Shown: piece after piece, positions 1 through 43,715 of the stretch
Layout: each line of letters begins with the position of its first letter
How positions within the stretch are numbered: the stretch's first letter is position 1
Virus record (IMG/VR): IMGVR_UViG_3300020183_000007
Coordinates: 1 to 64,000 of that record
From: a virus
Length of the DNA stretch: 64,000 bases
Reading direction: 5' to 3' (one strand)
The notes under the pieces: model-generated
Told to the model about the DNA's origin: nothing
The model's input: only the letters and a program-made list of their open reading frames with translations
The model's database searches: none
Program-made: the position numbers and the translations under genes

Positions 1-279
1 AACTCTTCCATACTTTTCTTTCTTATCAATAATAGTTTCAATTTTGACTTTATGATTTGCTGCGGTTAGCCATTGGTCAGTAAATTCTTTTGCCGCTAAT
101 CCCATTTTCTTTTCTTCAACATTAGAAGTTCTACTTTCAGGTGTATTAACTCCATATAATCGAACTCTACCCTTCTTCAACACATCAAAGCCAAGATCAA
201 TAATGATATCAAAAGTATCACCATCAACAACCTTTTTTACTTCAGCATTATATATCCACGGGTTTAATTTATCTGACAT
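1..279 (-). CDS. Thermonuclease (SNase-like), C-terminus cut by window edge
   Basis: The first 93 codons of a staphylococcal-nuclease-type protein are visible; the rest lies outside the window. Residues about 15-50 carry the family signature: a VVDGDTFD metal-binding strand, then RVRLYGVNTPESR, which supplies the equivalents of SNase Arg35 and Glu43. KYGRV at the cut edge matches the segment holding Arg87. The usual Asp40 is Asn here (VNTPE). The family cleaves DNA and RNA using calcium. There is no signal peptide in the visible part, so an intracellular role or a virion role is possible. The ATG follows directly on the TAA of the methyltransferase gene, with AGGAG inside that gene's end, so the two are probably translated together. 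A second SNase-like domain ends the giant protein at 32559-43715. Confidence 0.85.
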   Translation of the reverse strand, partial: MSDKLNPWIYNAEVKKVVDGDTFDIIIDLGFDVLKKGRVRLYGVNTPESRTSNVEEKKMGLAAKEFTDQWLTAANHKVKIETIIDKKEKYGRV

Positions 280-25500: not shown

Positions 25501-27632
25501 CTACTTCCAGATCCCTCATTGAAAATACCCCCTATAGCTAGAATAGTTCCGTCTGAAGAAAGCGAAACAGAATAACCCGATAGATCGCCAGCTGCTTCTC
25601 CATCTATATCGGAGCCTCTTTGGTTCCAGGATGTTCCGTTCCAAACGTATACTCTAACGTGGCCAGCGTTACTTCCAGATCCATCATTACCCGTAGCCCC
25701 TATAGCTAAAATGGTTCCGTCTGAAGAAAGCGAAACAGAATAACCCGATGTATCGCCAGCTACCTCTCCATCTATATCGGAGCCTCTTTGGTTCCAGGAT
25801 GTTCCGTTCCAAACGTATACTCTAACGTGGCCAGCGTTACTTCCAGATCCATCATTGAAAATACCCCCTATAGCTAGAATAGTTCCGTCTGAAGAAAGCG
25901 AAACAGAATAACCCGATTGATCGCCAGCTACCTCTCCATCTATATCGGAGCCTCTTTGGTCCCAGGACTGAAGAGTCATCCCCGCTGCGTAATCTGGAAC
26001 TCTCTTTAGATAAGAAAGATACCAAGAATAATCAACTTTGATTGGAGCATAAACCTCTTCAATGCCATCCTCGTAGATACCAGATATGCTTACGTATCCA
26101 GAAAAAGACGTTGTAGCCTTTTCTTCAGCCTCTAGTATTAGCTTAGCGTCGGCGTAGTCACCAACACCAGATTGATAATACTGTGGCGAAGAACTGGTAT
26201 CGACATCATATATAGCAGGGATATAGGATATGCCTTCTCCATCCATTCCGCCGTAATCCCAATATCCTTCTTCCCATCTAACATAACCTATATTTGAAGG
26301 ATATCTTTCGTTAATACTTTCGATAAGATCAACGAATGGCTTAAGGGGTTTGCCTGAAGGAGTAAACCATGGAGTACTTTTTTCCATATCAGAAATTTCG
26401 ATAACATCTGGAGTTGCGCCAAGATAATCTGAATCTGGTTCAAGACCATAAGCTTTCCATATATCCAGCTCTCTTCTTACGGTTCTTTTAAATCCATCCG
26501 TATGAGCTGCGGGATAATTTAATGATACATCAAGAATTCTTTTCTTGTATCTGGAATTAGACTCCAACAGCAACCTAGGAAGACCCACCCGTGCACCAAA
26601 TTCATCAAAATTATTTGGTACGTGCAAAGGTTGTTGGTTGTATTCGGTATCATTTATTTTTAATGAAGAAAACTCCCGCATAGATATTATTTGCTTGTTT
26701 GCCTGACTGTAATAATATACGTAGTCAGTTGATTGGCACCTATAGAATGAAGCCAAACTGTCCATCTGAACAAGTGGAACATCGTCTCCTGTAACCTTTA
26801 GAATATTTACAGGTACATCATAGGAAACATAAGCCCAGGCAAGCATGTTTTCATCTGCGCTTGATATATAATGATTAATATCGTAAAGGTTTAATTCATT
26901 ATCAAAATTATCAAGAGTCTCTTGAACTAACGCTGTTAAGAATTTTCCAGCTGTAGAACTCGGAACAAACAATGACGGTGTTGCAGGATTTTCTGAATCT
27001 GCAAACATATCTGTCCAAGTTGGAAACCTCTTTAATATATTTCTAGCGTGTTCGGAAGCAATAGCTGGAACTGGATCGTGTACCCCAACCTCTAAATAGA
27101 ATAGAAGACCTAGATCATTAGTGTTTAATGTTTCAGTAAATATTTCTAGTTCTATTTTTATCCAAGGCTTACAATCTCTTATGAAAATTATATTTGAATC
27201 AAAAGATAATACAGACTTTAACCATGGACCGTCCGCAGAGTCTGATTCATGCATTTGCAAATTAAATGTTGGAACCTCAGTTCCGGGAAGATTGGTGAAG
27301 ACATGTCTATACGCCAATACATCTATTTTTGATGTAGTATCAACAAATCTTAATACAGAAGGAGTGGCCTGCTCGTAAACAATTTCACCAATATCAGTAA
27401 CGTATAATGCGCTATTCGATAAAGGGGTAGCAAGTTCTGCGGTATAAGATGGAGAGGTATATTCTAGCCCAACGTATATATTGTCGCCTATTGTGTTTAG
27501 GCCATATCTTGATCTCACATAGGAATAATTGGTAAAGGAGTCATTTTTATATAGATTTATAGCATTACTTGTCCATGTGTTGCCGGACTTATTGAAGTCT
27601 CCGCTTTTTAAAAGTAACAAATACTGCTTCAT
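22545..27632 (-). CDS. Giant baseplate wedge / tail protein I-like with FG-GAP-like repeats
   Basis: A 1695-aa protein following the J-like wedge gene, the usual place for a gpI/gp7-type wedge. Residues about 190-390 (ARNILKRFPTWTDMF to LLLESNSRYKKRILDV and TDGFKRTVRRELDIW) look like the tail-protein-I region that docks on the wedge. Residues about 555-717 hold three near-identical 56-aa repeats with SLSSDGTILAIG and NAGHVRVY, of the FG-GAP/beta-propeller type. Later parts are Ig-like (FHVYGDIVSA with TTNDNGIAKTIIRYS at about 1395-1430). The chain is peppered with A/S-T/S-P tripeptides. The ATG at 27632 has AAGGA six bases upstream; a TTG one codon earlier is less likely. It probably projects from the baseplate as a fibre or sensor. 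Confidence 0.7.
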   Translation of the reverse strand: MKQYLLLLKSGDFNKSGNTWTSNAINLYKNDSFTNYSYVRSRYGLNTIGDNIYVGLEYTSPSYTAELATPLSNSALYVTDIGEIVYEQATPSVLRFVDTTSKIDVLAYRHVFTNLPGTEVPTFNLQMHESDSADGPWLKSVLSFDSNIIFIRDCKPWIKIELEIFTETLNTNDLGLLFYLEVGVHDPVPAIASEHARNILKRFPTWTDMFADSENPATPSLFVPSSTAGKFLTALVQETLDNFDNELNLYDINHYISSADENMLAWAYVSYDVPVNILKVTGDDVPLVQMDSLASFYRCQSTDYVYYYSQANKQIISMREFSSLKINDTEYNQQPLHVPNNFDEFGARVGLPRLLLESNSRYKKRILDVSLNYPAAHTDGFKRTVRRELDIWKAYGLEPDSDYLGATPDVIEISDMEKSTPWFTPSGKPLKPFVDLIESINERYPSNIGYVRWEEGYWDYGGMDGEGISYIPAIYDVDTSSSPQYYQSGVGDYADAKLILEAEEKATTSFSGYVSISGIYEDGIEEVYAPIKVDYSWYLSYLKRVPDYAAGMTLQSWDQRGSDIDGEVAGDQSGYSVSLSSDGTILAIGGIFNDGSGSNAGHVRVYVWNGTSWNQRGSDIDGEVAGDTSGYSVSLSSDGTILAIGATGNDGSGSNAGHVRVYVWNGTSWNQRGSDIDGEAAGDLSGYSVSLSSDGTILAIGGIFNEGSGSSAGHVRVYRNTSSRIGVGLTYEIGVKAHANYATPSTFYSNLNYLNRDDFYVGNRFSENHPSSPEFNLIKIFNDDGYTVSTLQFKDKIYNNLYYNASSSPSVNTINFDDVDSVKIVFSNGGWNYVTQTYDKSLATANYRGGFSKSTPSTTYYTNPSYMQQVELASPSNYTYTDANIRIGSTVYETKLASFNTQTITSSFFLNESNNLTASGTQNYSMHIDDLVDRLILPPQATPQYLYIDNIKPIGLTYFNETSIINTLHGGAAINPDDNERYLVPSSPNIIYKTYNSSNAEIASPDYFDSATINYYATPSYLTFESASNNFYPIYFTKYSPFTSETTPQIFSGYIDSLDNVYESSEAADNLFFNSDDFLKRIYLSKDSFGLNSEINYIIKDIQLISDTQYIEPYVSDKNSSITNINNAFSNNEDIDIDVRIARDIQEVVQNNPAIHTGWLYLNQDEYYIYSNPITDSATGRFFSLPISRYPRSGSPIIVKVGEEEYRNILFEDAATPGNILFSNTEEIYGNVSNTIYLAYQNVENISVTDSYTGVVLFDNLSTSTNELNCFSAATPSVYGRKYNVSYDVRNAWYVDKNVYNPNTEIFSSSVYFSSTPNTDQVYSVTYESSLNDNSHSIDLSLLPSLNPLDEGFVYISKTDYNFASAKAVLSPGNISNLQDDLMYLTIVSYDENNNFKPGQTFHVYGDIVSATPAYVTTNDNGIAKTIIRYSYTGEEKYQSSNVFISGIGSATPYGNVNSQTQGYVTFVPFDINIADSEILRLKAAPSSLIINAGSDQSVSIVGQVLWNNQPWGKILRVSWNKARTLKDLFAATPDYTAYTSSDGKLEIASVATAQDSATPGYWFARVNIADEDYAKTILLADQEINAGQNVTISGDVIYWYESYDTVQYDQELSPPLPNIYTSNKQEKSDIIATPNFVYKHNDSNTIIYNSATPNWTPPRWVPLRKYDQYQMGIFGSTPNHIADYELVHPDHEEQ
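25481..25967 (-). repeat. Three 168-bp tandem repeats (FG-GAP-like, 56 aa each)
   Basis: Three in-frame units of 168 bp, nearly identical in DNA. The landmark GTGGCCAGCG recurs on the plus strand at 25491, 25659 and 25827. Each encodes GSDIDGE-AGD-SGYSVSLSSD, then GTILAIG, NDGSGSNAGHVRVY and WNGTSWNQR (the last unit ends at VRVY). The low divergence implies recent duplication or ongoing homogenisation. Confidence 0.92.
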
Positions 27633-27647
27633 CAATCATCCTTAAAA

Positions 27648-27667
27648 TATTAATTTATAAATTAATA
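27648..27667. repeat. 20-bp perfect AT-only palindrome
   Basis: A perfect inverted repeat built from TATTAATTTA and its complement. It spans the stop codon of the J-like gene and the gap before the next gene. It lacks a G+C stem or a loop, so it is a poor terminator. It could be a protein-binding site or simply AT-rich spacer. Confidence 0.5.
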
Positions 27668-28831
27668 ATTAGTTCCACCCATTATAACAGAACTCACACT
27701 TATCGCACCTGCTACTGGATATTTTTTAACTGTATCTAATGAGAAATCTGCAATTGGGAGAACTGAACCATCGGCTAACATTGCCGTTATATAGCATCCG
27801 CGAATATAATCTGATGATAACTTAATCTGCCTTTCAATTTCAGAAACTAATACTACATCTCCTACGGTTAATGAATTTAGATACCTCTTTACAAAAAGTG
27901 AAGCCTGATTTCTAATTCCACTAGCAAGATTTTCACTTAAGCCCATTGGTAAACTAACGGTTATCTCTACATTTATGCTAACTCGTTCGGCCATCCTAAC
28001 ATTAAATCTCACTCCAATTGGTTTGACAGCGCTAACTGCTATCATTACTCTTTGAGGTAAATTTGCCATATCAGTAGCTGTTTCTGGCACAATTATGACG
28101 TCACATGATCCAACTCCATATGTACCCTCCCTAATTCTAACGTCCCTAACTCCTCTAACCGCTAAGGCTGCAAATCTAATTGACTCAGCTGTACCTGGAG
28201 CTTTTGCTTTTACAGAAGCTATGATTCTTCTTCTAAAATTAGTATCTGATTCTGCGCTCGTGTTAGAGTGAACCTCTTTTGGATTGGAGCAAAATAATAT
28301 TACTCCAGCCGGAGAAAAAGCATTGTGTTTAGTTAAAGTGCTAACTGGCGCAACATAAGCGTTGTCTGTGAAATTTGGATCAACTCTTCCATAGGCCCTG
28401 GTGGATCCTTTGCCAATAATTACATCTCCAGCTAATTTATATGTGTATTGCTTTGTGATAAAATTAGATACATCATTATAAACTAATGTTCCAGACGGTA
28501 TTGTCACATCTGTACTATGCGGTTTATCAATAAAAAATTGAATATTAAAAGATTCACGATCCTGGCTTGAATAGTCGCTAACATTTCTTCTAGTTATACC
28601 ATACAAATCGCCTATAAGATCTAAATTTCTCCCGGATGCGGTCATAAGATCTCCCTGCATAAGGTTGAATCTCAGTGCCTCATACAAGTCCGACACTTCA
28701 CTGGTGAAGGCTTCAGCAAAAGCTCTAGCTATAGAGCCTGGATAAACAGCCGATATGCCTGCATTTTTTTGTAAACCATTTAAAACGCTGACTAATATGT
28801 CAGCTTTATTTTTTATTCCGTACATTGGCAT
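27662..28831 (-). CDS. Baseplate J-like protein (gpJ/gp6 family wedge)
   Basis: A 389-aa baseplate wedge of the baseplate J family. Characteristic stretches: the N-terminal helix with YPGSIARAFAEAFTSEVSDLY, SGRNLDLIGDLYGI, the beta segment DVTIPSGTLVYND, the AESDTNFRRRI helix, and APGTAESIRFAALAVRGVRDV, followed by DVIIVPETATD. In contractile tails this protein joins the gp25-like wedge to the outer baseplate and triggers sheath contraction. AGGAG lies seven bases before the ATG, which comes one base after the upstream stop. Gene order gp25-like, J, I-like is the classic wedge order. The length is normal. Confidence 0.92.
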   Translation of the reverse strand: MPMYGIKNKADILVSVLNGLQKNAGISAVYPGSIARAFAEAFTSEVSDLYEALRFNLMQGDLMTASGRNLDLIGDLYGITRRNVSDYSSQDRESFNIQFFIDKPHSTDVTIPSGTLVYNDVSNFITKQYTYKLAGDVIIGKGSTRAYGRVDPNFTDNAYVAPVSTLTKHNAFSPAGVILFCSNPKEVHSNTSAESDTNFRRRIIASVKAKAPGTAESIRFAALAVRGVRDVRIREGTYGVGSCDVIIVPETATDMANLPQRVMIAVSAVKPIGVRFNVRMAERVSINVEITVSLPMGLSENLASGIRNQASLFVKRYLNSLTVGDVVLVSEIERQIKLSSDYIRGCYITAMLADGSVLPIADFSLDTVKKYPVAGAISVSSVIMGGTNY

Positions 28832-28832
28832 C

Positions 28833-29213
28833 TCATGCTCCTAAAGTTTGGCTAACGGAAAGAATAATGGGCTCATTGATATCTGATATGATGTGAATAT
28901 CAAATCTGATTATATCCCTACTTGTTGGGACTGCCTTAATTTGAATACCCCTACCCTTAAAAAGACCTTCTTTTTGAATACCAGCCATTATTAAGGCTTT
29001 GCCAAATTCAGCTGTTTCCTTGGTTTGTGGCATTCCATAGAGTCTTGAAAGATCCACCCCTAACTGTGGATAAATATAGAAATCTCCAGGTTCAGTCATA
29101 ATTCTTAAGTAAATCTGCTGGACATCCTCATGCATAGAGGATGGAGCTAGGGCAATATCCCTATTACCATCAAGCATCAGGTCTCCATTTAATGTCAAAT
29201 ACAAATCACTCAT
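28833..29213 (-). CDS. gp25/GPW-like baseplate wedge
   Basis: A 126-aa protein of the gp25/GPW lysozyme-like baseplate family, which in T4 and P2 initiates sheath polymerisation at the baseplate. The sequence shows LMLDGNRDIAL near the start and the diagnostic DVQQIYLRIMTEPGDFYIYP followed by GVDLSRLYGM. The T4-like EPR motif residues are largely replaced (TEPGDF). It overlaps the upstream spike gene by eight bases, with AAGGAAA before the ATG. Despite the name lysozyme-like, the family has no confirmed enzymatic activity. Confidence 0.9.
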   Translation of the reverse strand: MSDLYLTLNGDLMLDGNRDIALAPSSMHEDVQQIYLRIMTEPGDFYIYPQLGVDLSRLYGMPQTKETAEFGKALIMAGIQKEGLFKGRGIQIKAVPTSRDIIRFDIHIISDINEPIILSVSQTLGA

Positions 29214-30226: not shown

Positions 30227-32548
30227 CTAACTATCTCCATTTGCGTATTGTCTTGGGAATACTTCTCCGCTAATCCATCTTTCTATATATTTAGCTGAGT
30301 AGTTTGCTACTACTGGCAAAAATACAGATGGATCATTGGCGTATACATTTCTTATCCACCTTTTTAAATGTTCTGCTGTTTTACCCGTTTTATCAGTATA
30401 TACGTCTACTGCGTCCTGAAACTTGACTCCGCTATTCATCCAACCGTAAGCTTTGTATCCATCTCCCCAAACCTGAAATTGATATCCATCAAGTTTAGGT
30501 TCTCCAAAAGTTGGAAGTCTTCCTGTACGAGCAGTATAGGCTAACCAAGCCTGATTTCTAGGTATCCACAATCTTCTGTCCACCAATGGTCTCATCTCTT
30601 CTACTACCTTATTACTGGAATTACCGTTGTAAAATAAAGATAGATGATATTTATCATTTATAATTTTATTATACGTATCTTGAGTTGGCCTAGTTTCGCC
30701 TGGATAAACTGAGTCCCAATTAGCTGAAGCTATGAGCCATCCCTGCATCTGCGTCTTTCCATTTGTATCTGTTAATTCATAGGTTTTAGTTCCATGCGCC
30801 AAACCAGAACTTCTCGTATACCTTGGGGTACCACCAGAATATCCAAATCCACCAGCACCCATATTAATCTGTAAAAAGCCTAAAGAAATAAAATCTGTAT
30901 CACCAATATAAAATCCAGTAGGCCTACAATTACTTTCTCTTACAGCTACTGCTGCCAAACATGCTGCAAGTTCGGGTGTGCACCATGTTTGGGTCAAAAC
31001 ATCATAAACTCCATCTAAACCTAAACTAAAATCCCATTGCCCATAATAGTTTTGATCTAACGAACTAGCTGTAGTGCCGGGGTATAATCCTCTTTCAATT
31101 TGACGCTCCAAACTATCTACGGCACCAGGAAATCCAGATGGACGCGAGGTAACACTGCCACCGGAAACATTTGTCCCAGAAACTGTCATAGCTCCACCAG
31201 GACCAACATATTTACCAGCTCTCATTCCGCTAAAGCTTAAGTGTATGTGATCTCTATGACCTGAATCAGCGTGAAAGTTTAAATATTGTAAATATGGTCT
31301 ATTAAGTTTTATCGCAGCAGTCACTGGTTCTAAATCATCAATTATTCCCATATCAGTCTTAAGTCTATCGCTAATGACAATTAGATCTGGGATAAGGTAC
31401 TGGGGAACCTCGGATAAAGCTTCTAGTAATATATCTAAAGCAGAACCATATATAGTCACATGATTTGGTGAACTATGAGTTGTTTCTACGTCAAACGCTT
31501 CTTCATTAATTCTTCCAACTTTTCTTATATCTATAGCTCTACCGAAAGTATGATCTCCGGGAATAAATTTATCTGGCTTAATGTATTTTTCCTGATCTGG
31601 ATCTCTTCCCGCACCAAGACCACCAGATATATAGTAGTTTTTTTCGTGCAGGAGTATTAATAATTCTATCAAAGATGCTGATAAAAATGCGTTTGCAACA
31701 CCCAAAGTAGGATTTTGAACTATTAGGTCGTCGCTCAAAACTCTTTGGGTATTATCTACTTTAGCATCGGGGAAGTAAGTAAAAGATCCATTATAGACTT
31801 CTCTAGGGTCTGCTGCCCATTCATTCGGAATATCAAATCTAAATCCACCAATACTAGAGTAATCACCTATTTGTCCTTCATATTTTGTTCTAAGCAGATT
31901 CAACCTTTCTCTATACCAGCTTTTTTCTTCTTCTGTCATTTCCGCTATTAAAGCAACATCCCTTCTTCCCGCACTTTGCATCTCACTAATACCCGGGGAA
32001 CTTGATCCACCGGATCCTCTATTATTTTCTAACGGATTTCTGCTTTCAGAGGAAGTAATCATTGTATTTCTTATAATTTGCAAAGAATTTTCAACAAAAG
32101 TATTGCCAATATTTTTTCCGGCCATACTCTTAGATAGTATTTTATTCCATGCCGCAGCTCCGGTTAGAGTGGCATTATTAGAGCCAGTAGGATCCCCCTC
32201 GGGGCCAACACTAAAATCTGTTGCTTCAGGGTTAGCTATTGTAATGGTCGCATTTTCGGGAGTGGTAGCGGATGCAGCTGCAGCTCCGCCAGTAATCAAA
32301 CCATTTAAAGATGCAGATACACTTGCATTCATGGCTGCTATAGGATATTTTTTACTTCTATTTAAAACATCTCCAGCCATAACTCCAGTTACATCAAAAG
32401 AACTTAATGTTCTTCCTGTGGCAGGAGGCGCTAAAGAAGCGCTAGTGTTTAAAACTGGTGATTTTCCACCGGGGTAAAAATCCCCATGTATAGTTTTAGC
32501 AAAAGATGCGCTATCAGAAAGAGATTCATTATTAATATTAAATGACAC
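30227..32548 (-). CDS. Tail-associated lysin: M15 peptidase plus lytic-transglycosylase-like domain
   Basis: A protein of about 773 aa with two cell-wall hydrolase domains. Residues about 330-435 contain HTFGRAID, an exact HxxGxAxD zinc motif, and later GHRDHIHLSF, supplying HxH; together these define an M15/LAS peptidase that cuts peptide cross-links. Residues about 530 onward contain AVRESNCRP with a candidate catalytic Glu and SLGFLQINM, typical of lysozyme/SLT-like glycan cleavage. The 320-residue N-terminus is Ala/Ser-rich and probably mediates assembly. The best start is GTG at 32548, with GGGAG six bases upstream; an in-frame TTG seven codons earlier overlaps nothing useful. Located between the giant hub gene and the OB-fold gene, it should sit at the tail tip and open the wall during entry. 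Confidence 0.85.
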   Translation of the reverse strand: MSFNINNESLSDSASFAKTIHGDFYPGGKSPVLNTSASLAPPATGRTLSSFDVTGVMAGDVLNRSKKYPIAAMNASVSASLNGLITGGAAAASATTPENATITIANPEATDFSVGPEGDPTGSNNATLTGAAAWNKILSKSMAGKNIGNTFVENSLQIIRNTMITSSESRNPLENNRGSGGSSSPGISEMQSAGRRDVALIAEMTEEEKSWYRERLNLLRTKYEGQIGDYSSIGGFRFDIPNEWAADPREVYNGSFTYFPDAKVDNTQRVLSDDLIVQNPTLGVANAFLSASLIELLILLHEKNYYISGGLGAGRDPDQEKYIKPDKFIPGDHTFGRAIDIRKVGRINEEAFDVETTHSSPNHVTIYGSALDILLEALSEVPQYLIPDLIVISDRLKTDMGIIDDLEPVTAAIKLNRPYLQYLNFHADSGHRDHIHLSFSGMRAGKYVGPGGAMTVSGTNVSGGSVTSRPSGFPGAVDSLERQIERGLYPGTTASSLDQNYYGQWDFSLGLDGVYDVLTQTWCTPELAACLAAVAVRESNCRPTGFYIGDTDFISLGFLQINMGAGGFGYSGGTPRYTRSSGLAHGTKTYELTDTNGKTQMQGWLIASANWDSVYPGETRPTQDTYNKIINDKYHLSLFYNGNSSNKVVEEMRPLVDRRLWIPRNQAWLAYTARTGRLPTFGEPKLDGYQFQVWGDGYKAYGWMNSGVKFQDAVDVYTDKTGKTAEHLKRWIRNVYANDPSVFLPVVANYSAKYIERWISGEVFPRQYANGDS

Positions 32549-32558
32549 AATAAACTCC

Positions 32559-35500
32559 CTATTGCCCAACTCTTGCGGGCATTATTGCTGATTCTTCGGC
32601 ACTGATGACAGAATTCCCCTCAATTTGAAGCTGCTTAGTATATACTGTAGCCAAGTTATTTGTTACCAATTCCCAATTTAGGGTAACAGGATGGCCATTT
32701 TCATAGTATTCATCCCAGAATATAGTAGGCCATTCTCTAGTTTTATTATAGGTAGATTCTAGTACTTTATACTGCACTAAATCGTTATACAATTTAATTG
32801 TTTCACTATTGGATAATCCATATTTAGTATTTGTATCGAGTGTTATGGATAGTGGCGAAGTGTAAACTAAGCCTAATGCTGAAAGCGCATTTAATATTGA
32901 GTCTTTCTTAACAAAAAGTGGTGAATCTTGATATATAGAGTTAAAGAATAATTGTTTTATTTTTTGCTCTGCGCCGGCGCCAATTTGATTATCTATAAAA
33001 CATTTTTCAACAAAATCTTTTGCTGCCTGGACTATAGACTCTGGCTGATAATACCATACTGTACCAAGGATTCTATTTGACTCTGTAACATCTTTAGTAT
33101 AGTTTGCAACAGTATTTTGCTCTGCCCCAGCCTCGAAATCAGATTCAGAAATAACAGAACTCGACGCTGCGTTGTTAATTCTTATTCTTAAAACTACTAA
33201 TCTGTTTTCTAATTTAGATTGTACGAATATCTTAGCTTTACCACCAGGAGTATTGATTGCAGTCATTTTCGTTGATGGCGTTGAGTCATTACTATAGCTA
33301 ACTCCTAAATCGCCATCATTTGATGTAACAGTAAATGTATTAATTTCGCCAGAGTCTATTCCATCAAATCTGACAGTAAATTTTGCCCCAGAAATAACAT
33401 CCTGTACATCAAATGTGTCACCATCTTTAAATTTTATAACTTTAGCAATAACGCTAAATAGTGAAGGTTGGAGATTAGTTTTATCTGGACCTAGCCCACT
33501 TAATTGTAGCACTCTTGCATGAACTAGAGCATTCTCGTAATCTATGTATCTTATTAGATCTGTTGTCTGCCTTTCTTGCCAACCTAAACTCTTCAAAAGA
33601 TCGTCGCTTCTAATAAAAATATTTCCTTCTGGTGTTCTAACTTTTGTCCTTGCACCGAGCAGGCCGGGGAGCAATACTTTAGAGTGATGCCTGCCAACAA
33701 CCATACCCTGATTATAAGATAGTCCAGCATCCATCGGCTGACCATTCTTGCTAAGATATTGAACATAACATCCGTGTTGGTCAAGAACATTGTCTCTAAT
33801 CCATTTCCAACCCTTCCATGCCAATTGACCAACTATTGGCACAGACAAACCCATAGCAAAGCCTGCTACTCCGGTAGCGCCAGCGCCAGCTGCAGCCGCT
33901 GCGATGCCCACTCCGCCAGTTAAGGCAGTAGTCATTCCCTGAAAAACAGATCTGCTAGCAGAAGAACCATATTGCTTAATCACAGCTTCTGCTTTTTGGG
34001 GAAGAGTTGTAGCTGTTTGATTTGCCATAATATCCTTAATTAAAGCAGTAGATCCATGAGTGTATTGTAATCCACCAATCATCTGGGGGCTTAAGGCGTC
34101 GGATAAAGCATCTACTGATACCATTCCGCCTAAATTAATGCCGCTGTTGGATGCCATTATATTATCCATATAGAAACGTGTATCATTTCTTAGGTTTTGC
34201 ACAGTGAACCATGAGTTAATCCATGAGCTCAAAAACCATCTGGCAGGATCGTTAACGGTCACCAAAGCATTTGGTGTAATCGATGTAATATAGCCCATTT
34301 CTGGAGTAAAGTGATGTACTATTTGTTCAACTTCAAAAATGCCGTACATTCTTTCATAAACATCCGACAAGTAAACCAGGTCATGCGGACGTATATCAGC
34401 ATTCCCGATTATAATTAATTCCCCACCATATATATCTTTAATTGATTCTCTCAGGTGCGCTAACGCTATTCTTCTAGCAGATAGTTCGTCAGGTGTGCCC
34501 TGAATATTTTTTGCTATACCCCTGACTGTTTCCAGGGGATGCATTAGTGGATGCAGCACACCGAGAAATCCAGATCCAACGAAATTATCGTAATACAAAC
34601 CTGTTTCAACAGTTTTTTCAGTTTGACGCTCTGCTGGCGCGCCTTTGTCTAGGGCTACTGTAATTGGATACTTGCCATCTGAGACAGCTGTAACAACAGT
34701 AGAAACTCCATTTAGGTTTTCTTGAATCTGATTAGATATAATATGAGAAAATGAACTTAAATAATGCAATCTTTGGAATGATTGCCTAACTTCCACAACT
34801 GGCTCACCATACTCACGAGTAAACGGATTATCTACAGCCCTCAATAGGCTACCCTCTCTTCCAAGCGAATAATAAATAGAATCATTTAGAACTTTATTTA
34901 ATATATGAGCTTGCCTACTAAAATTACCAACTTCGGTGATAGCATATCCCATTTGCATCATGGCCAATTTAAACATACCTAAAAGACCAGAAAGACCGTC
35001 GCCTATTGCACTCATAATTGGCCCTATGTTTCTATCATAGAAATTACCAACGCTTTCTGATATTCCACTAATAAAAGTAGAAGAACCAGTTCCTTCCGAT
35101 TTTGTGGAAACTAAAAGCTTCAGAAATTTATTTTTATCCTTAGCGTATTCACCATAAGGATTTATAAAAGCTTCAAAAATTTTATCAACAGGTTTGAATG
35201 ACCATTGCCCCTCAGAACCGCCTCCACCACTTGTTATAATTCCCCTTTTACGGTTGGGCTTTAATACTAACCATGCTCTACCATAAGCTGTACTCCAAAG
35301 ATTTTGTCTAAATATTCCAACCATTAAAAGAAATAATTGTTTTGGAGTTTTAATTTTTTCACTTAGAGCAATAGCCTCTTCAGGATTTTTTTTATTTTCT
35401 AAAGCGTACTCTAATATCGAGTTTGTAACTCCAGACTCAAAAAAGTTTTCTTTGATTCCATTAAGAGCGTCAGCAATAGTAGCATTAAAAAATTGTATTA

Positions 35501-38500
35501 TCCCTGTATCAGATTCTTTTTCTGCTGCTATTAAGTCTATATAGTTTTTTCTTATAAACTCTACTGCGTTTCTTCTTTGAGTAGCGTTTGTTGACGGAAC
35601 ACCTTGACCACCCATCTGTGGATTATTGGGTATATTAAAATAATCTGCACCTAACAAAATAGCTAATTCATCTACTGCGGTATTTTCAGTGTTAGATAAA
35701 CCTGCGATTGGAATGTTTGAATCCTCAAAATTACTAAATGAGTTTTCGTTTGAGGATCCTAATATTCTAGCAAATTCTTCTGGAAATGCGTCCGTTGAAT
35801 CTGGGTCCATTCCATAAATTCTTGCAAAAATAGCTTTAACGCTATCATATGTATGATAACCAAATCTGAACTGATCCCATATATCATTTGCTTGATTCAG
35901 ATTTCTTCCATTACCAGCTATAACTGATACATTCGGGTCAAAATTTTCATCATAATAAGATCGAGCTTCAACTGAAACAGAGTCCAAAGGGTCATATACA
36001 CTTAAGAATGCAGCTCTGCCCTTACTTGTCTTTACATCTCCGGTTGTACTCAGCTCTTCATCTAAAACGTCATATAAATAACTTCTAGAAAGTTGTTCAT
36101 TTCCTACTAGATCGGAATCTTCACTTGATCCTAAACCACCAGACTCTGCTGAGGAATTAAAGTTTGTAGCATCTAATAGTGCATTAAAGTAACCTATAAA
36201 TGGTTTATCTCTTCCGTCTGGAACTGCTAAAGCATTGCCGCCAAAATCAAATCTGCTAGAAGATATTTCCGCATTTATAGGAATCCACTCCGAGAATATA
36301 TTTGGAGGATCTACCATGTCCTCATCATAAACCTTAAATCTAGAGCCAGCTCCACCTTGAAGTTCATTTATTAAATCCTGAGAAGTTGTGCGTCTTGCTG
36401 TCAGTTCTGATAACTGACCATCTTCTGTCATTGTGTAATTTCCAAAACCAAGGATCATGCTGTCATCCGGAGATCTGGCTCCTCTTTCAAGGAATCTTTT
36501 TATCGGAGCTGCTGCTGAAGATATTACACCTACAGGAACATCGTCTGGCACAAATGCAAACATACATTCCACTGGCTGTGGATTTATACTTAATCCACTT
36601 TCATTTTCATAATTTAACTCATCTTCATTACCAAAAATAGATACATTTAATCTATCGGTAATTCTATTTCCTATATATATAGGAGCGCTAATATATTGCG
36701 AAACGTTTAAAGCATAACCAAGCGCAGTGCCTGCAGCGCTGCCTACAGCGCCAGCTGCACTTGCCATTGTATTTATCCATGATGGCAATTGGTTTAATAT
36801 ATCGGATTCCTCTGAGTTAGCGGTTAATTTAAAACTTAAATTTTTTGATATGAAGTTACCCAAATACCATGCAGCGTCTGGAGAAACTACAGCTGCCGCC
36901 GTATCATCATCATCTCCCCATAGGAAATATGCTGGAGCGCAAACAACAGCCCTATTAGTTCTGGGACTATAAACTAAGACTTTTCTCTTTTTATAATCTT
37001 CTGCTGTTCCATATAAATCCGTAAATCCATACTTTTCTTTGAACTTTTCCAATGTTTCATCATAGACAGTTATGTTATTAAAGCCCGAAGGAGCTTGCGT
37101 AGAAGAGAATCCAGGATTATATGGCCATTTCATAGCAATGTAAAATTGTTCTGCCTCTGCTGCTGTTTGCTGAGAGGCAGGGAGGTCACCGGGAGATCCC
37201 CATTCTTCATAAGATATCTGATTTGATATCTCATACTCAAACGAATAATCATCAGCATTTCTCTTTGCCTCAGAAGAGCTAACTGAGTATTGTGTAATTG
37301 CAGCTGGGTCAACAGATATGCTTAATCTATTAGCTAAAACAGAGGGCAGAGGCATTCTTACATACTTTGTATTTGCTCCACCAATAAAAGACAAACCATC
37401 TACATCAATAATATTATCAATAAAAGTTGAGAACCCCAAAGGACGATCTAACTCTAATATTCCAGAAGATGGCACTAGAGTTAGTTCATTATTTAAAATG
37501 AACTTGCTTTCATACTGAAGCAGGGTAAACATGTTGGCCATAAAAGTTGCGCCACCAAAAGATCTTCTATCTTCTGCCATTGCCTCATTGACAAACCCTT
37601 GAAATTCTTCGGCGTCCATTGGAACTTCGCCTTCATTATCTAGAAACTTTCTTCCAGATTTGCCAATATCCTTAAAATGACTGGCTGCGTTCTGAAAAAC
37701 TCCGCCGTCTCTAATACTATAAGATGTAGAGTCTAATATAATAGTTTCATTGATTGTGTAAAACGGGTACCTAAATCTTGGCGGAAGATTATCCAACTGA
37801 GCATGGGCTTTTGTCATTGGAGCAATAGTTGTAGTCGGATCTCCAACAGGAAGGTGGAAACCAACTCTTGTTAAGCCAACTACTGTTGGTAGTTTTGCTA
37901 CTACCACTTTAGTTCCGTCGTCTTGTGTTTCAGAAAAGCTTGAAGCTAATGGTGAGTTAAAGTTAATTAATTTTTCTTTCAAAAATGCCGTAGGCTTATA
38001 AATGCCCTGTGAATTAACTTGATCACTAGCTAAGCTTGCCATTGTATCTGACAGTTCATTAGATCTTTTAAATGCTTCATAATCAGCAAGTGTGTTACTG
38101 GATCTATTTATATTACTCATAATATTTTGAATATCTTCATCTGCCGAACGATATTTTGGATAGCCAGGTAATTCTAGTTCAGAGCCTCTTTGCGTACTAG
38201 GAAAACCAGTAGTTACAGGTACTACGCCCGAAGTGTAAAGCCAGTGAGGCTTACCATAAAATATTGTAGATCTATCTTCAAAAGGTCTAATGGCTACAAT
38301 ATAATTGGGTAACAATCTAGCGCAAACCTGGAATAAATCCCATACAGTTCTCATATATGTTTGAGCCCTGAAGGAGACTTCGTCAAAACCTGGTAGGTCA
38401 TCATCATCGTTTGGTGAAATAATACCCATTGTTCGGAAAAGATTGGTGCCACCTCTTCCTCTTAATATTCCAAATAATCCACCACCAGCTATTCCAGAAC

Positions 38501-41500
38501 CTATAGCAAAATTTACTCCAGGTATTAGACCTACAGCTCCAGCCAATCCACCCATAAGTATATTTTTAGTTGCGTTTGCCCTACCCTCACTAGATACTAG
38601 TTGATTTCCGGCAGTCATTGTTGAAATTGCTGTTTTGGCTGACACGGACTCATTTTGAGCTTCTACTATAAGACGATTCCAAGATCTGTCTCCGGCTCTT
38701 TCCAAATACGCTTGTCCTTTTAGTTTTTTACTATCTTCCTCCACTAAAGACGAAGCTGTCAACCATCCATCATCTATGTCTCCACCAAGGAACTGAGCAA
38801 AGCCTGTTCCATTTCCTGGATAAATATTTCTTTTGAAAATTTCTAAATCAACCTCTGCACAGAAGTTAGACATTAACTGCCCCATGCTAGTCATTATTCT
38901 TCCATCTCCAAAGAATGTGCTAACAGGGTTTCTTGTAAAAACATTAGTTGCCAACTTGAATGATGCCGCATTGGCAGCTCCGCCAACATCTCCTTGACCA
39001 AGATTAGAATAAACGCTTGCTACAACATTTCTTATTCCATCAGCTCTTGCCCTCTCTGATTCGCTTAATGGTTCGTATAGTGTTGAGCCAAAATGTCTAA
39101 TACCAAATCTATTTTCAGAAAAGACTGTTCCATTTGTAGCTCTAGCAAAAGCTTCCCTAAATCTTGATGCGCCCATTGAAAGCAATCTAACCATTAGGTC
39201 TCTAGGTTCAGACAAATACATGCCAGTATCTACGCCACCATCTATTTTACCTGTGTCGCCTTTTTTATTTGTAGAGTTAACTATTGCACTAAGCTCAATT
39301 GCATCAGACTGTGCTGTTACTGTAACAATTTCACCTTGCTCCACATTTGTTATCACACCATTGAAAACTGTTTGCAAAGAGTTTGGATTAGCACCATATC
39401 CAACCCTAAGATGAACGCGAACTCCAGGCTTTAATCTAATATTATTAATATCTACAACATAATCATTTCTCATTCCTGAGACAATATTTTTAGCTATATT
39501 CAAAGTTCTATCCAAAATAGATTCAATACCTTGAGTAAAGTCTATTGGAGCATCATTTGGTTGGTTATCTCTAGAATTAAAAATTTCAGTAGAAGGACGT
39601 GTAGTCAATTTTGAATACATATTTGATACTCTAAATATTAAAGTATCACCCAAGAGATCCTCTGAGGAAACAACGGAAAAATCTACTATAGACTGCAACC
39701 CATAAAAGTTATCGAATAATTTAACACCAGCAAAAAAACCACCTTCGTCAATTAACCATAACATGTAGGTGGGAAATGCCCTGATCATTCTTCCAGATAT
39801 ATCTCTATACTGTACATCGTTCATCATCTTTTGAATATGGCTACCAAAGGATCCATCATAAGCTTTTTGATACTTATTTAATGACTGAACACCTTCTACG
39901 CCGGTAAGGGCATTTTTGCAACCTCTATCTGGCGTTTGTGTATCCTCAACCTGATTCTCTACTAGTCTCTTGTCTCCATGGTCATCTATCAAAACATTGG
40001 CTCCATCAACTGTTAAATAAAATCTTCCATTGTCTTTATTAATATAGCCAAAATGAGTCCCTAATGCTGATTGCATCATTGCCGGAATGTCTGATCCGGA
40101 TCCAGCTTCTTGCGGATTTGTTGCTGGAATCAAGTATATAACTTTATGAAAATCAACTTCATCTGGATTAAAGCTGACTTCTGTTTCAGTTGCTAAATGA
40201 GAATTTGTCAAAACCTGTTTGATTAAATTTAGCGTTTCTGCACTACTATAATTTACATTACCAACGGAATAACCGGCTCCAGAAATTTCTTCAAATACTG
40301 GATTATCTTCAGTTGATTGTGCAGAAATAAAAACATAATCGGTTAATAAGGCTTGCTTTTCTGAAGTTTGAAACTCAGAAGTTTCTGCTTGTACCACTTC
40401 TTGGAAAAGACTAATAAAGTTATGAACGCTTATGCCGCTACTGTTCACATAGTCTATGATTTCGTCAATTAATATTTTATTATTATTTGCTCTTAAAAGC
40501 TGCGGCAATGGCTCATTGGCAATATCCTTATAAGCGTATCTTCTAAGAAAATCTGTAATTCTATTTTTAACTTGATTTTTTCTTATTTCTATACCACGCG
40601 CATCTCCCAGCTTAGCCCAATTATCACTATAATCAAATTTAAAATCTTTTGTTATATCTGGTTGATAAGTAAAGTTATTAATGACATCTCTGTCAAACAT
40701 TTCAAAACTTCTAAAATAGAAGTCTGGATCCAAATTGCCAACTATTTCATTTTCTTTATCACGAACTTCCAGCGGCATATCGGGATATGCATTAAATGCT
40801 CCCCACAACTGCTTAATTCTTAAAAATGGATTTCTTTTTGACCCAAAGTGGTCAATAAAATCTTTTTGCTGCTTTGATGAAAGCTTTTCTCTTTTTTGCT
40901 GAAATATGTCAAAGTCAACAAAACTTAATTGAACATTGTAAACATGTGGATAATTTGGTATTGTATCGACTTTGAAGTTTAATGGAATAACATATTTGAT
41001 TCCACATAGTGCGCTAATAATATTTTTAATTCCAAGGAAACCAATAACTCCCGTAGAGTGTTCAAGCCTTGCTAATGAATTGATATGATCAAAAATTGCT
41101 CTAATTTTATAAAGCTCTCTTTCACCAAAAACAGTCATTGATATATTGACATATGAATCTTTTCCACCTATATACTGATATGTTGGTTCCTCCTGCATTT
41201 GCACTTGCAACTTCGAAAGGTTGTTTCCAAGACTTACGCTTACACCATTAACTATAGCTTTTTTAGGGTCTAAATCAACTCTGTTCATTGGGACTTCCCA
41301 TTCCTGGAAATGGTAATCTCCCTCCCTTAAACGCTTTGCCTCCATAAGATTTTGGATATAGCCATCAGAAAAAAAGCGATCATACAGTGATAATAAGAAT
41401 GCATCAGTTACTTGTTGACGAATTTTTTTTTCGTCAGGCACGGCTGTTTCGGTGCCTAAAACTTTTCTTTTTTCAATCTCTTCGACAATCAAAGTTTCAA

Positions 41501-43715
41501 TAATATTACCAGAAGAATAAACTGAATCCCAAATACTTTTTTTGATAAAGTTTAAACTAACACTATTATTTTTATTATTGAAAACTGGATCATTCAATAT
41601 ATATGATCCTTCTGTTGGATATAGGGTAAAGTAGTCTACATCAAATGGCATTTGGTCTGGAGTTAGGTAATTCAACAACCATTCTTTTTCTTGTGTCGTC
41701 AACTTTAATATGTTGCTTGATATAAATGACTGTACCTTGTATTTATAGATTCCAGCCCTGTAGTCACTTTGATTAATACCAGCAGTAATTATATCTACAG
41801 ATTGCCTAACAGCTGTCTTAATAGAAGGGGGGAATGTTGGCTCTAGAGAAAGAGACTTGATTTGATCTAAATCACGAATTGCTGGTGTATTTGGAGAAAT
41901 TTCAATTCCGAATTTTGCCAGCAAACCATTCCACAGTCCAAAACTTTGTTGATTAAGAATTTTTTCCTGCTCACTTCTGAAAGAAGAAGTATCAGGTAAG
42001 AACATTTTTGTTTGAGTTTCAGCTGGAGTATAAAAAGTTAAGTTACTACCGTCTCTCCACTGAGCAACTATATTGGTATATAAAACATCATTTTCATACG
42101 TGTTAAGCAGTTCTACTGTGTCATCCGTTAAAGAAGAATCTACTAGCGCAGATTCATCGATTAAAATAGGTCCATGTGGATTTTTCTGATATATATATGA
42201 GTCACTACGAATTATTCCAGTATTATCTTCTGTCTCTTGGACATTTTTATTATCGGACGTCTTTAGTAAGAAGGATTCGTTTGCGTATTTATGCATTGCA
42301 CCCGCTGCTTTACCCATGTACTGCCTGTATTTACCCCAATGAATTGCTTGATTAAAGTCTTTGAGCATTGGCAAAAATGGTTTGTGATTATAAGCGAGCA
42401 GCTCTAAATCAACCATTAAAGAAAATGGATAATTAGGAACTGTAGAAACAGACATAGAAGATAATGCCACAGCTGAAATTCCATGGACAGAATTTATATA
42501 ATCATTTTTTATTGGAAGTATTGGAGAGTATTTAAATGCTGCTACTAATCCACGCAAAGAAGAAAGAAACTTATCTATTTTTTCTTCCGAATCTCCAGTA
42601 TTCTTAAAATCTATTTTAAAATTTTCCTTAAGATCTATTGCCGAAGCATCGCTTATATGCATGCCCCATATTTCTTCATAGTTTGGAAAGAATAATCTTA
42701 AAGAGATTGAAGTTTCTTTATAGCCAGCATTATATTTGGGAGTATTTCTTTGTCTGATTGCTCCGCCAGTAAGTGATCCAGTTTTAAATGCAGAATTAAC
42801 CGTGATAGAAATAGGCGGTACATAAAAATTAGCTGCGCCTAAACGCAAATGAAAAATATCAGGTTTTTTGGGAGGTATATGAGCTCTATATGGAAAGTCT
42901 TCTATTGCCTTACGAATTCTTTCGGAAGTGTTACCTCCAATTCTAAAAGCCATAGTAAATATTGGCTCACCATTTGGAGCAAGACCAAAAGCTTTTTCCA
43001 ATTCATCAATAGCATCCTCTTCCCTATTGAGGGTATCCTCTTTTCCGCCACCCTTGCCTGCATTTGAGTAGTCGCCTGTTACAGCCAACGCATCAAAAAC
43101 AAACGTCATTAAACCCGGCAGGTAGTGATTTATAATAGAGAAAGATATAGGATCCGCTTGAAGATTGTAAACTACTTGGCTTAATAAAGTAAGCCATTCG
43201 GTATCAACCGCTGGATCTATGTGATAATCTAAAGACTTTTGTGTAATATACACATTTTGTAGTCTTTTCTTGCCCAATTCACTTATTTCATAGGCGAATG
43301 ATGCTAGATATAGTAGGCCGGTAGATTCTAGCCTTTTATACAAATTTACCAGAAGAGTATTGTCGTCAATGATTGAAGACAATGTGCCCCCAAGCGTAAA
43401 AACTCTAGTAGTAGCTTCTACCCTTTTCTGATAGTTATCTTTCGCTTCTTCCAGACCAGATGAATAATCTGCAAGGGTTGCATAATGATCTATATCAAGT
43501 ATGGGAAGAATTTCAGGCCTAGTTAAAGAAAAAAACCTTTCAAAAGCTTCTTCTGAGTTTTTGTACCGAGACTTAGGTAAATAATCATCGGTTAGATTAA
43601 GCGGACCAACCGTCATCATATTCACAAAAGCTTTTTGACTGTAATTATATGACAATGGGTCTGCGGAGTTTAAATTCTGTTCTTCTTGATTTTCCGATTG
43701 TTCGATATTAGACAT
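32559..43715 (-). CDS. Giant baseplate hub-like virion protein (3718 aa) with C-terminal SNase-like domain
   Basis: One uninterrupted 3718-codon frame. Residues about 285-465 and 808-948 look like two copies of one domain (each ending around STVPNYPFSLMVDLEL or DTIPNYPHVYNVQLSF). At about 1430, GVRVHLRVGYGAN with TVFNGVITNVE resembles the gpD/gp27 hub barrel; NYIVAIRPFEDRSTIFYG (about 1808) and DLVYLSDVYERMYGIFEVEQ (about 3120) look like further hub parts, so large insertions may split the hub. Around 2262, VYSPRTNRAVVCAPAYFLWG resembles an RlpA-type barrel. Glycine-rich hydrophobic stretches occur near 1735, 2320 and 3272. Residues about 3430-3570 form an SNase-like domain with DGDT, VRFDGIDSGE and NRILGTVWY, keeping the Arg35, Glu43 and Arg87 equivalents. 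AAGG precedes the ATG; stop TAG. Confidence 0.75.
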   Translation of the reverse strand: MSNIEQSENQEEQNLNSADPLSYNYSQKAFVNMMTVGPLNLTDDYLPKSRYKNSEEAFERFFSLTRPEILPILDIDHYATLADYSSGLEEAKDNYQKRVEATTRVFTLGGTLSSIIDDNTLLVNLYKRLESTGLLYLASFAYEISELGKKRLQNVYITQKSLDYHIDPAVDTEWLTLLSQVVYNLQADPISFSIINHYLPGLMTFVFDALAVTGDYSNAGKGGGKEDTLNREEDAIDELEKAFGLAPNGEPIFTMAFRIGGNTSERIRKAIEDFPYRAHIPPKKPDIFHLRLGAANFYVPPISITVNSAFKTGSLTGGAIRQRNTPKYNAGYKETSISLRLFFPNYEEIWGMHISDASAIDLKENFKIDFKNTGDSEEKIDKFLSSLRGLVAAFKYSPILPIKNDYINSVHGISAVALSSMSVSTVPNYPFSLMVDLELLAYNHKPFLPMLKDFNQAIHWGKYRQYMGKAAGAMHKYANESFLLKTSDNKNVQETEDNTGIIRSDSYIYQKNPHGPILIDESALVDSSLTDDTVELLNTYENDVLYTNIVAQWRDGSNLTFYTPAETQTKMFLPDTSSFRSEQEKILNQQSFGLWNGLLAKFGIEISPNTPAIRDLDQIKSLSLEPTFPPSIKTAVRQSVDIITAGINQSDYRAGIYKYKVQSFISSNILKLTTQEKEWLLNYLTPDQMPFDVDYFTLYPTEGSYILNDPVFNNKNNSVSLNFIKKSIWDSVYSSGNIIETLIVEEIEKRKVLGTETAVPDEKKIRQQVTDAFLLSLYDRFFSDGYIQNLMEAKRLREGDYHFQEWEVPMNRVDLDPKKAIVNGVSVSLGNNLSKLQVQMQEEPTYQYIGGKDSYVNISMTVFGERELYKIRAIFDHINSLARLEHSTGVIGFLGIKNIISALCGIKYVIPLNFKVDTIPNYPHVYNVQLSFVDFDIFQQKREKLSSKQQKDFIDHFGSKRNPFLRIKQLWGAFNAYPDMPLEVRDKENEIVGNLDPDFYFRSFEMFDRDVINNFTYQPDITKDFKFDYSDNWAKLGDARGIEIRKNQVKNRITDFLRRYAYKDIANEPLPQLLRANNNKILIDEIIDYVNSSGISVHNFISLFQEVVQAETSEFQTSEKQALLTDYVFISAQSTEDNPVFEEISGAGYSVGNVNYSSAETLNLIKQVLTNSHLATETEVSFNPDEVDFHKVIYLIPATNPQEAGSGSDIPAMMQSALGTHFGYINKDNGRFYLTVDGANVLIDDHGDKRLVENQVEDTQTPDRGCKNALTGVEGVQSLNKYQKAYDGSFGSHIQKMMNDVQYRDISGRMIRAFPTYMLWLIDEGGFFAGVKLFDNFYGLQSIVDFSVVSSEDLLGDTLIFRVSNMYSKLTTRPSTEIFNSRDNQPNDAPIDFTQGIESILDRTLNIAKNIVSGMRNDYVVDINNIRLKPGVRVHLRVGYGANPNSLQTVFNGVITNVEQGEIVTVTAQSDAIELSAIVNSTNKKGDTGKIDGGVDTGMYLSEPRDLMVRLLSMGASRFREAFARATNGTVFSENRFGIRHFGSTLYEPLSESERARADGIRNVVASVYSNLGQGDVGGAANAASFKLATNVFTRNPVSTFFGDGRIMTSMGQLMSNFCAEVDLEIFKRNIYPGNGTGFAQFLGGDIDDGWLTASSLVEEDSKKLKGQAYLERAGDRSWNRLIVEAQNESVSAKTAISTMTAGNQLVSSEGRANATKNILMGGLAGAVGLIPGVNFAIGSGIAGGGLFGILRGRGGTNLFRTMGIISPNDDDDLPGFDEVSFRAQTYMRTVWDLFQVCARLLPNYIVAIRPFEDRSTIFYGKPHWLYTSGVVPVTTGFPSTQRGSELELPGYPKYRSADEDIQNIMSNINRSSNTLADYEAFKRSNELSDTMASLASDQVNSQGIYKPTAFLKEKLINFNSPLASSFSETQDDGTKVVVAKLPTVVGLTRVGFHLPVGDPTTTIAPMTKAHAQLDNLPPRFRYPFYTINETIILDSTSYSIRDGGVFQNAASHFKDIGKSGRKFLDNEGEVPMDAEEFQGFVNEAMAEDRRSFGGATFMANMFTLLQYESKFILNNELTLVPSSGILELDRPLGFSTFIDNIIDVDGLSFIGGANTKYVRMPLPSVLANRLSISVDPAAITQYSVSSSEAKRNADDYSFEYEISNQISYEEWGSPGDLPASQQTAAEAEQFYIAMKWPYNPGFSSTQAPSGFNNITVYDETLEKFKEKYGFTDLYGTAEDYKKRKVLVYSPRTNRAVVCAPAYFLWGDDDDTAAAVVSPDAAWYLGNFISKNLSFKLTANSEESDILNQLPSWINTMASAAGAVGSAAGTALGYALNVSQYISAPIYIGNRITDRLNVSIFGNEDELNYENESGLSINPQPVECMFAFVPDDVPVGVISSAAAPIKRFLERGARSPDDSMILGFGNYTMTEDGQLSELTARRTTSQDLINELQGGAGSRFKVYDEDMVDPPNIFSEWIPINAEISSSRFDFGGNALAVPDGRDKPFIGYFNALLDATNFNSSAESGGLGSSEDSDLVGNEQLSRSYLYDVLDEELSTTGDVKTSKGRAAFLSVYDPLDSVSVEARSYYDENFDPNVSVIAGNGRNLNQANDIWDQFRFGYHTYDSVKAIFARIYGMDPDSTDAFPEEFARILGSSNENSFSNFEDSNIPIAGLSNTENTAVDELAILLGADYFNIPNNPQMGGQGVPSTNATQRRNAVEFIRKNYIDLIAAEKESDTGIIQFFNATIADALNGIKENFFESGVTNSILEYALENKKNPEEAIALSEKIKTPKQLFLLMVGIFRQNLWSTAYGRAWLVLKPNRKRGIITSGGGGSEGQWSFKPVDKIFEAFINPYGEYAKDKNKFLKLLVSTKSEGTGSSTFISGISESVGNFYDRNIGPIMSAIGDGLSGLLGMFKLAMMQMGYAITEVGNFSRQAHILNKVLNDSIYYSLGREGSLLRAVDNPFTREYGEPVVEVRQSFQRLHYLSSFSHIISNQIQENLNGVSTVVTAVSDGKYPITVALDKGAPAERQTEKTVETGLYYDNFVGSGFLGVLHPLMHPLETVRGIAKNIQGTPDELSARRIALAHLRESIKDIYGGELIIIGNADIRPHDLVYLSDVYERMYGIFEVEQIVHHFTPEMGYITSITPNALVTVNDPARWFLSSWINSWFTVQNLRNDTRFYMDNIMASNSGINLGGMVSVDALSDALSPQMIGGLQYTHGSTALIKDIMANQTATTLPQKAEAVIKQYGSSASRSVFQGMTTALTGGVGIAAAAAGAGATGVAGFAMGLSVPIVGQLAWKGWKWIRDNVLDQHGCYVQYLSKNGQPMDAGLSYNQGMVVGRHHSKVLLPGLLGARTKVRTPEGNIFIRSDDLLKSLGWQERQTTDLIRYIDYENALVHARVLQLSGLGPDKTNLQPSLFSVIAKVIKFKDGDTFDVQDVISGAKFTVRFDGIDSGEINTFTVTSNDGDLGVSYSNDSTPSTKMTAINTPGGKAKIFVQSKLENRLVVLRIRINNAASSSVISESDFEAGAEQNTVANYTKDVTESNRILGTVWYYQPESIVQAAKDFVEKCFIDNQIGAGAEQKIKQLFFNSIYQDSPLFVKKDSILNALSALGLVYTSPLSITLDTNTKYGLSNSETIKLYNDLVQYKVLESTYNKTREWPTIFWDEYYENGHPVTLNWELVTNNLATVYTKQLQIEGNSVISAEESAIMPARVGQ

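Follow-up and report, generated by a model that had tools for sequence, protein, structure and literature searches.

A staphylococcal nuclease-type domain on a giant baseplate hub protein of a large lake virus, and its recurrence in a family of phage hubs

Nuclease domains described on related hubs

Tail hubs usually carry domains that cut peptidoglycan. Hydrolase domains of this kind are known on hubs of the family studied here (PMC2147016), and our analysis also finds one on the hub of Acinetobacter phage ME3 and a weaker match on that of Moorella phage MTATph1. A nuclease was described in 2007 by Hardies et al., who reported a staphylococcal nuclease (SNase)-related N-terminal domain on the hub of the BtI1 phage element, a homologue of gp147 of 0305phi8-36, which they assigned to the T4 gp27/P2 gpD family, and to whom it was “not obvious why” such a domain should be there (PMC2147016). 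Compared by its description only, the BtI1 hub is like the hub encoded in the window (the whole stretch of DNA analyzed, i.e., the opening 64 kb of a lake virus record of 179,608 bp) in being gp27-type, in coming from the same wide phage lineage, and in having a fused SNase-related domain, which is N-terminal in BtI1 and C-terminal here. This was the only report of a hub SNase found in the literature that was searchable, which omits most subscription papers, and it means that an SNase on a hub of this kind is not new. The initial annotation of this locus, which knew of no described hub with such an arrangement, is therefore contradicted by the BtI1 case, and also by the ME3 hub (vB_AbaM_ME3, ME3_37), which has a Pfam-level SNase (4.7e-14) in addition to an M23 peptidase.

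The ME3 hub, annotated by homology to 0305phi8-36, has a hub core homologous to that of the window protein, whereas its SNase is internal (aa 1126-1241, beside the M23 peptidase) and lies nearer to free-standing SNases in our tree, with modest support. Homologous giant hubs with an SNase that retains R35, E43 and R87 (staphylococcal nuclease numbering) are also present in Bacillus phage KLEB27-3, MTATph1, pAD3 (B. velezensis) and pN497-ZHONG (Cytobacillus), the last two being phage-plasmids whose hubs are annotated “nuclease”; unlike the window protein, all four have the SNase at the N-terminus (aa ~130-300) and no C-terminal SNase. In place of the latter, the MTATph1 hub has a VanY/M15-like peptidase at its C-terminus (VanY-like match, E 0.0026, below the Pfam cut-off), suggesting that hub ends may behave as enzyme slots.

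Two further groups of proteins are relevant. Staphylococcal nuclease and free-standing phage SNases (PF00565, phrog_452) share with the window domain the order of the fold, the DGDT motif, R35, E43 and R87, whereas the window domain is part of a 3718-aa virion-type protein and contains a longer, variable insert between E43 and R87 (90 residues here). In the evolved VgrG proteins of Type VI secretion systems, as in the window hub, a C-terminal enzymatic domain is fused to a gp27-like hub (PMC6838775). The window hub, in contrast, is that of a phage tail with baseplate genes around it, and neither a Pfam search of its C-terminal 813 aa nor a PHROG search of the whole protein identified a VgrG or spike family, with no gp5-like spike recognized.

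The hub gene and its surroundings

The carrier protein is identified as a baseplate hub from its homology, from the order of the surrounding genes and, weakly, from its fold, in agreement with its initial description as a tail hub protein. Its gene and the segments of its product are as follows.

32559..43715, minus strand, giant baseplate hub-type protein, 3718 aa, homologous to the KLEB27-3, MTATph1 and ME3 hubs
39021..39863, minus strand, hub core segment, aa 1285-1565, kept in nearly all hub relatives fetched (22-100% identity)
34161..34598, minus strand, second hub core segment, aa ~3040-3185, from PHROG matches and alignment with known hubs
33816..33932, minus strand, Gly/Ala-rich hydrophobic segment, aa ~3262-3300, seen directly in the sequence
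33483..33764, minus strand, conserved linker domain, aa ~3318-3411, NGQPMDAGLSYNQGMVVG..., the best-conserved stretch of the C-terminal region among 37 relatives
32991..33464, minus strand, SNase-type nuclease domain, aa ~3418-3575, from fold, profiles and active-site conservation
32562..32990, minus strand, C-terminal helical domain, aa 3576-3718, with the motif WPTIFWDEYYE.G.PVTLNWELV.NNLA

Searches of reference phages with tblastn matched the protein to the hubs of KLEB27-3 (E 8e-28) and MTATph1 (E 2e-25), and to the “baseplate hub protein” of ME3 (E 7e-8). An AlphaFold2 (AF2) model of the first core segment, of low confidence (pLDDT 56), had baseplate or tail-tip proteins as most of its top PDB matches (best E 4e-3). 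Within the second core segment, aa 3076-3168 match phrog_8809 and, weakly, the tail protein family phrog_52, and the alignment with the KLEB27-3, MTATph1 and ME3 hubs reaches to about residue 3173. Beyond this point, the C-terminal 436 aa gave no tblastn match in the reference phages, nor did the C-terminus of the relative L052, whereas the hub core did; stretches resembling the linker domain, NGKEFSAGINGHNGCVYG and YQGREFTAGINGHKGLVVG, are nevertheless present in the MTATph1 and KLEB27-3 hubs. In three relatives (L052, L053 and L056) the giant hub is split (~10 kb), with the ORF for the C-terminal part starting no more than about 424 aa ahead of the region matched.

The following genes in the window bear on the role of the hub.

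27662..28831, minus strand, baseplate J-like protein (PF04865, 5.4e-11; phrog_6, 1.1e-36)
28833..29213, minus strand, baseplate wedge-like protein (phrog_120, baseplate wedge subunit, E 3.8e-4)
30227..32569, minus strand, 780-aa neighbor, probable tail peptidoglycan hydrolase, from motifs read by eye
1..279, minus strand, free-standing SNase gene, cut at the contig start (PF00565, 28.3 bits)

The J-like and wedge-like genes are downstream of the hub gene, and in a relative (L009) the ORF sizes follow a matching order. The gene for the 780-aa protein overlaps the end of the hub gene by 11 nt. At E<=1, its product has neither a Pfam nor a PHROG match; by eye, it contains an M15-peptidase-like motif (H..GRAID...HRDHIH) and lytic-transglycosylase-like motifs, and BLASTP aligns it with the MTATph1 hub C-terminus over 38 aa (E 0.005). 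Three other proteins are encoded on the minus strand nearby: one of 1696 aa (22545-27635) that matches the FG-GAP_2 repeat (E 3e-7) and may be a tail adhesin; and two giant ones just upstream of the hub, one of 1691 aa (44181-49256) with no PHROG match and one of 2231 aa (49259-55954) with no Pfam match.

Full copies of the free-standing gene in relatives are canonical SNases; for example, the full-length copy in L067 matches PF00565 at 2e-14 and has SNase matches in the PDB. Close relatives of this gene occur in hundreds of IMG/VR stretches, and in the window a C5 cytosine methylase gene (280-1173, minus strand) is located just upstream of it. At least 13 contigs carry both a hub SNase and a free-standing SNase. 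The hub copy is thus not simply the only nuclease of the phage, and the retention of both genes suggests that they have different jobs.

An SNase-type domain and its conservation

When searched as a single sequence against Pfam and the PDB, the window domain yielded nothing useful, and we therefore used alignments, profiles and the predicted fold. These identify residues ~3418-3575 as an SNase-type domain with an apparently complete active site. The initial annotation had placed an SNase-like domain within the last ~300 residues; it is present there, and the ~143 residues that follow it make up another conserved domain that is not a nuclease, mostly helical in the AF2 model and with nearly invariant W/D/E/Y/G/L/N/W/E positions (alignment A4). 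Within the SNase-type domain, DGDTFDV begins at residue 3431, VRFDGIDSGE at 3448 and NRILGTVWY at 3547, such that D19 and D21 of SNase correspond to D3431 and D3433, R35 to R3449, D40 to D3454, T41-P42 to S3455-G3456, E43 to E3457 and R87 to R3548. The three catalytic residues originally proposed to be kept (Arg35, Glu43 and Arg87) are therefore all in place.

The AF2 model of aa 3318-3718 has a pLDDT of 71 overall, rising to about 80-94 in most strands and helices of the SNase part, and follows the SNase order beta1-beta2-beta3-alpha1-beta4-beta5-alpha2. As in SNase, R35 lies within beta3, E43 in the loop after it and R87 where beta5 begins. A Foldseek search of the PDB with this model gave staphylococcal nuclease and SND1 as top matches (prob 0.98-1.00), the best with prob 1.00 and E 5.7e-4, and the target TM for SNase being ~0.5-0.56; in a viral structure library the best match was an uncultured phage's “baseplate hub protein”, and nucleases, several with the name TNase, came next. 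Both the fold prediction and the structural search thus bear out the proposed SNase-like domain. Profile searches did so in part. An alignment of 14 hub domains (A7) matched one of nine phage SNases over motifs I-II in hhalign (95%, E 2.8e-8), and the endonuclease family phrog_452 was matched by 13 of 25 relatives (best E 2.8e-5) and by the window sequence alone at E 0.044. Neither the window domain nor any of the 25 C-terminal hub members reached the PF00565 cut-off, and we therefore call the domain SNase-type, by fold and active site, rather than a Pfam SNase member.

A first scan with the C-terminal 319 aa found eight IMG/VR loci; a later scan that included the preceding hub region found 37, of which 36 continue past the region used. 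In A7, where mean column identity is ~42%, the D, D and T of DGDT are invariant, as are the positions equivalent to R35, E43 and R87. Among lineages less than 90% identical, 18 of 19 keep D21, R35, E43 and R87. With one lineage (L062) left out, all four are among the 14 invariant columns of 160 (hypergeometric P 4e-5); with it included, only D21 stays invariant and the test is not significant (P 0.19). L062 encodes a natural “dead” hub SNase (11345-12373), with G, K, R and N at the equivalents of D19, R35, E43 and R87, and its loss of R35, E43 and R87 together indicates that catalysis is dispensable in one lineage. The more distant L052, in contrast, is textbook-like (DGDTIHV...VRLEGIDTPE...NDRTLATIFY) and retains T-P where the window has S-G. 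Compared with staphylococcal nuclease, P42 is mostly replaced in window-type SNases, and the calcium ligand D40, present in the window domain, is Asn in most relatives and in the free-standing phage SNase.

In L048 (~11785-11846) and in L050 and L051 (~11800-11861), the hub ORF stops within the SNase, between E43 and R87, and the sequence resumes in the +1 frame, with no start codon seen nearby in the new frame. The ~40 nt of this site (CAACGGAGATAATCTTCArACAGATGAAGACTTTGATGC) are almost identical in two otherwise diverged lineages, and the site is a candidate programmed +1 frameshift, or a shared indel.

Across the hub family, SNase domains are located at three positions, and an alignment demonstrated that R35, E43 and R87 line up across all of them: N-terminal in KLEB27-3, MTATph1, phage-plasmids of the Bacillus group and many IMG/VR contigs; internal in ME3; and C-terminal in the clade of the window. 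Among 40 further loci, an N-terminal SNase is clear in 10 (L159-L168, with near-identical copies among them), about a dozen give weak N-terminal matches broken by large inserts in which DGDT, R, E and GR are visible, and one (L184) has a C-terminal SNase. Many of the N-terminal SNases of L169-L192 seem to hold insertions of 100-200 aa between E43 and R87. N-terminal SNases are degenerate in three loci (L173, L179 and L195), and four related hubs (L155-L158) contain no recognizable SNase.

In our tree the C-terminal SNases form one group (100/100), which fits a single change of position. This grouping is the only firm result of the tree: tests rejected neither a tree with all hub SNases together (p-AU 0.48) nor one with the C-terminal type beside free-standing SNases (p-AU 0.49), and the C-terminal type could descend either from the N-terminal SNase of a hub, by a move within the protein, or from a free-standing SNase, by a new acquisition. 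We disfavor recent copying of the free-standing SNase gene of the window itself, as the two are in different groups and on long branches.

Possible roles of the hub nuclease

SNase chemistry needs Ca2+ at levels that are usual outside cells and in the envelope and uncommon in the cytoplasm. We consider it probable that the C-terminal region of this hub provides a catalytic, presumably Ca2+-dependent SNase at the tip of the virion, acting on nucleic acid that it meets as the cell is entered. In this scheme, the SNase would be a module fused to the tail-tip hub of a large phage with a contractile tail; on account of its Ca2+ need, it would be near-silent in the low-Ca2+ cytoplasm during virion assembly; the hub would bring it to the cell envelope along with the peptidoglycan hydrolases encoded nearby; and in the outside water or the host envelope it would become active and cut nucleic acid encountered at adsorption and entry. 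Delivery to, or action at, the host envelope, as originally proposed, is plausible as a reading, and the sequence alone does not separate the targets named with it, i.e., extracellular DNA, host nucleic acid or competing phage DNA. A Gly/Ala-rich hydrophobic segment had also been noted near residue 3272, and it is indeed present at ~3262-3300. Its Gly/Ala part is deleted in L033-L037, where VPIVGQLAW is retained, and we have dropped the idea that the segment is needed for delivery of the nuclease.

Several observations count against a catalytic entry nuclease: the triple loss in L062, the degenerate SNases, the four hubs without one, the Asn at D40 in most relatives (though this is shared with the free-standing SNase), and a window domain below the Pfam cut-off. 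Some of these would suit a non-catalytic OB-fold module that binds nucleic acid or holds the hub together, its active site inherited and not needed, since L062 keeps the domain despite losing its catalytic residues and degenerate N-terminal versions persist; moreover, OB-folds are usual in hub and spike proteins. However, if the OB-fold were purely structural, nothing would explain the persistence of the charged set, which is retained in 18 of 19 C-terminal lineages and, as R35, E43 and R87, in the N-terminal and internal hub SNases also, and we therefore regard a non-catalytic role as unlikely.

The hub, or a fragment of it, might instead act inside the newly entered cell and degrade host or rival-phage DNA or RNA. 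The cytoplasm would be a poor setting for this, given the calcium levels that SNases need. The location of the SNase at the C-terminus, after a hydrophobic stretch, recalls the evolved VgrG proteins, in which the C-terminal domain is the effector (PMC6838775); in most relatives outside the window's clade, however, the SNase is N-terminal or internal, demonstrating that a position after this stretch is not required, and we give an intracellular effector only a small chance. Marginally less probable again is an action on the phage's own DNA, for instance at the leading end of the genome, close to the tail tip, or else during packaging in the infected cell. The hub is located at the exit of the DNA channel, which is in favor of this, and a non-specific nuclease beside that channel would endanger the genome, which is against it. 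A T4 head-completion nuclease is noted to function in packaging (PMC7824862), but nothing here links the hub to packaging, and the free-standing SNase is a simpler candidate. Finally, an unrelated domain might by chance resemble SNase in three short motifs, and the lack of any Pfam or PDB sequence match to the window sequence alone could be cited in favor of this; in light of the profile match, the co-conservation of the active-site residues and above all the structure search, it is so improbable that it can be set aside.

The hub SNase is a real and recurring feature that is not wholly new, and its occurrence at three positions with the catalytic residues retained indicates that the 2007 case was no one-off. 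KLEB27-3, MTATph1 and ME3 offer cultured models for asking why a hub has an SNase, and a nuclease on the tail hub would imply that nucleic acid is an obstacle or a target during phage entry. More tentatively, and with the odds against it, a catalytic SNase may long have been a regular component of tail-tip hubs throughout a lineage of large phages like 0305phi8-36, BtI1 and ME3, whether N-terminal, central or C-terminal, and may serve as an entry nuclease switched by calcium, clearing or destroying nucleic acid at the envelope of the host. If this is true, it would constitute a general, unrecognized step of infection in these phages.
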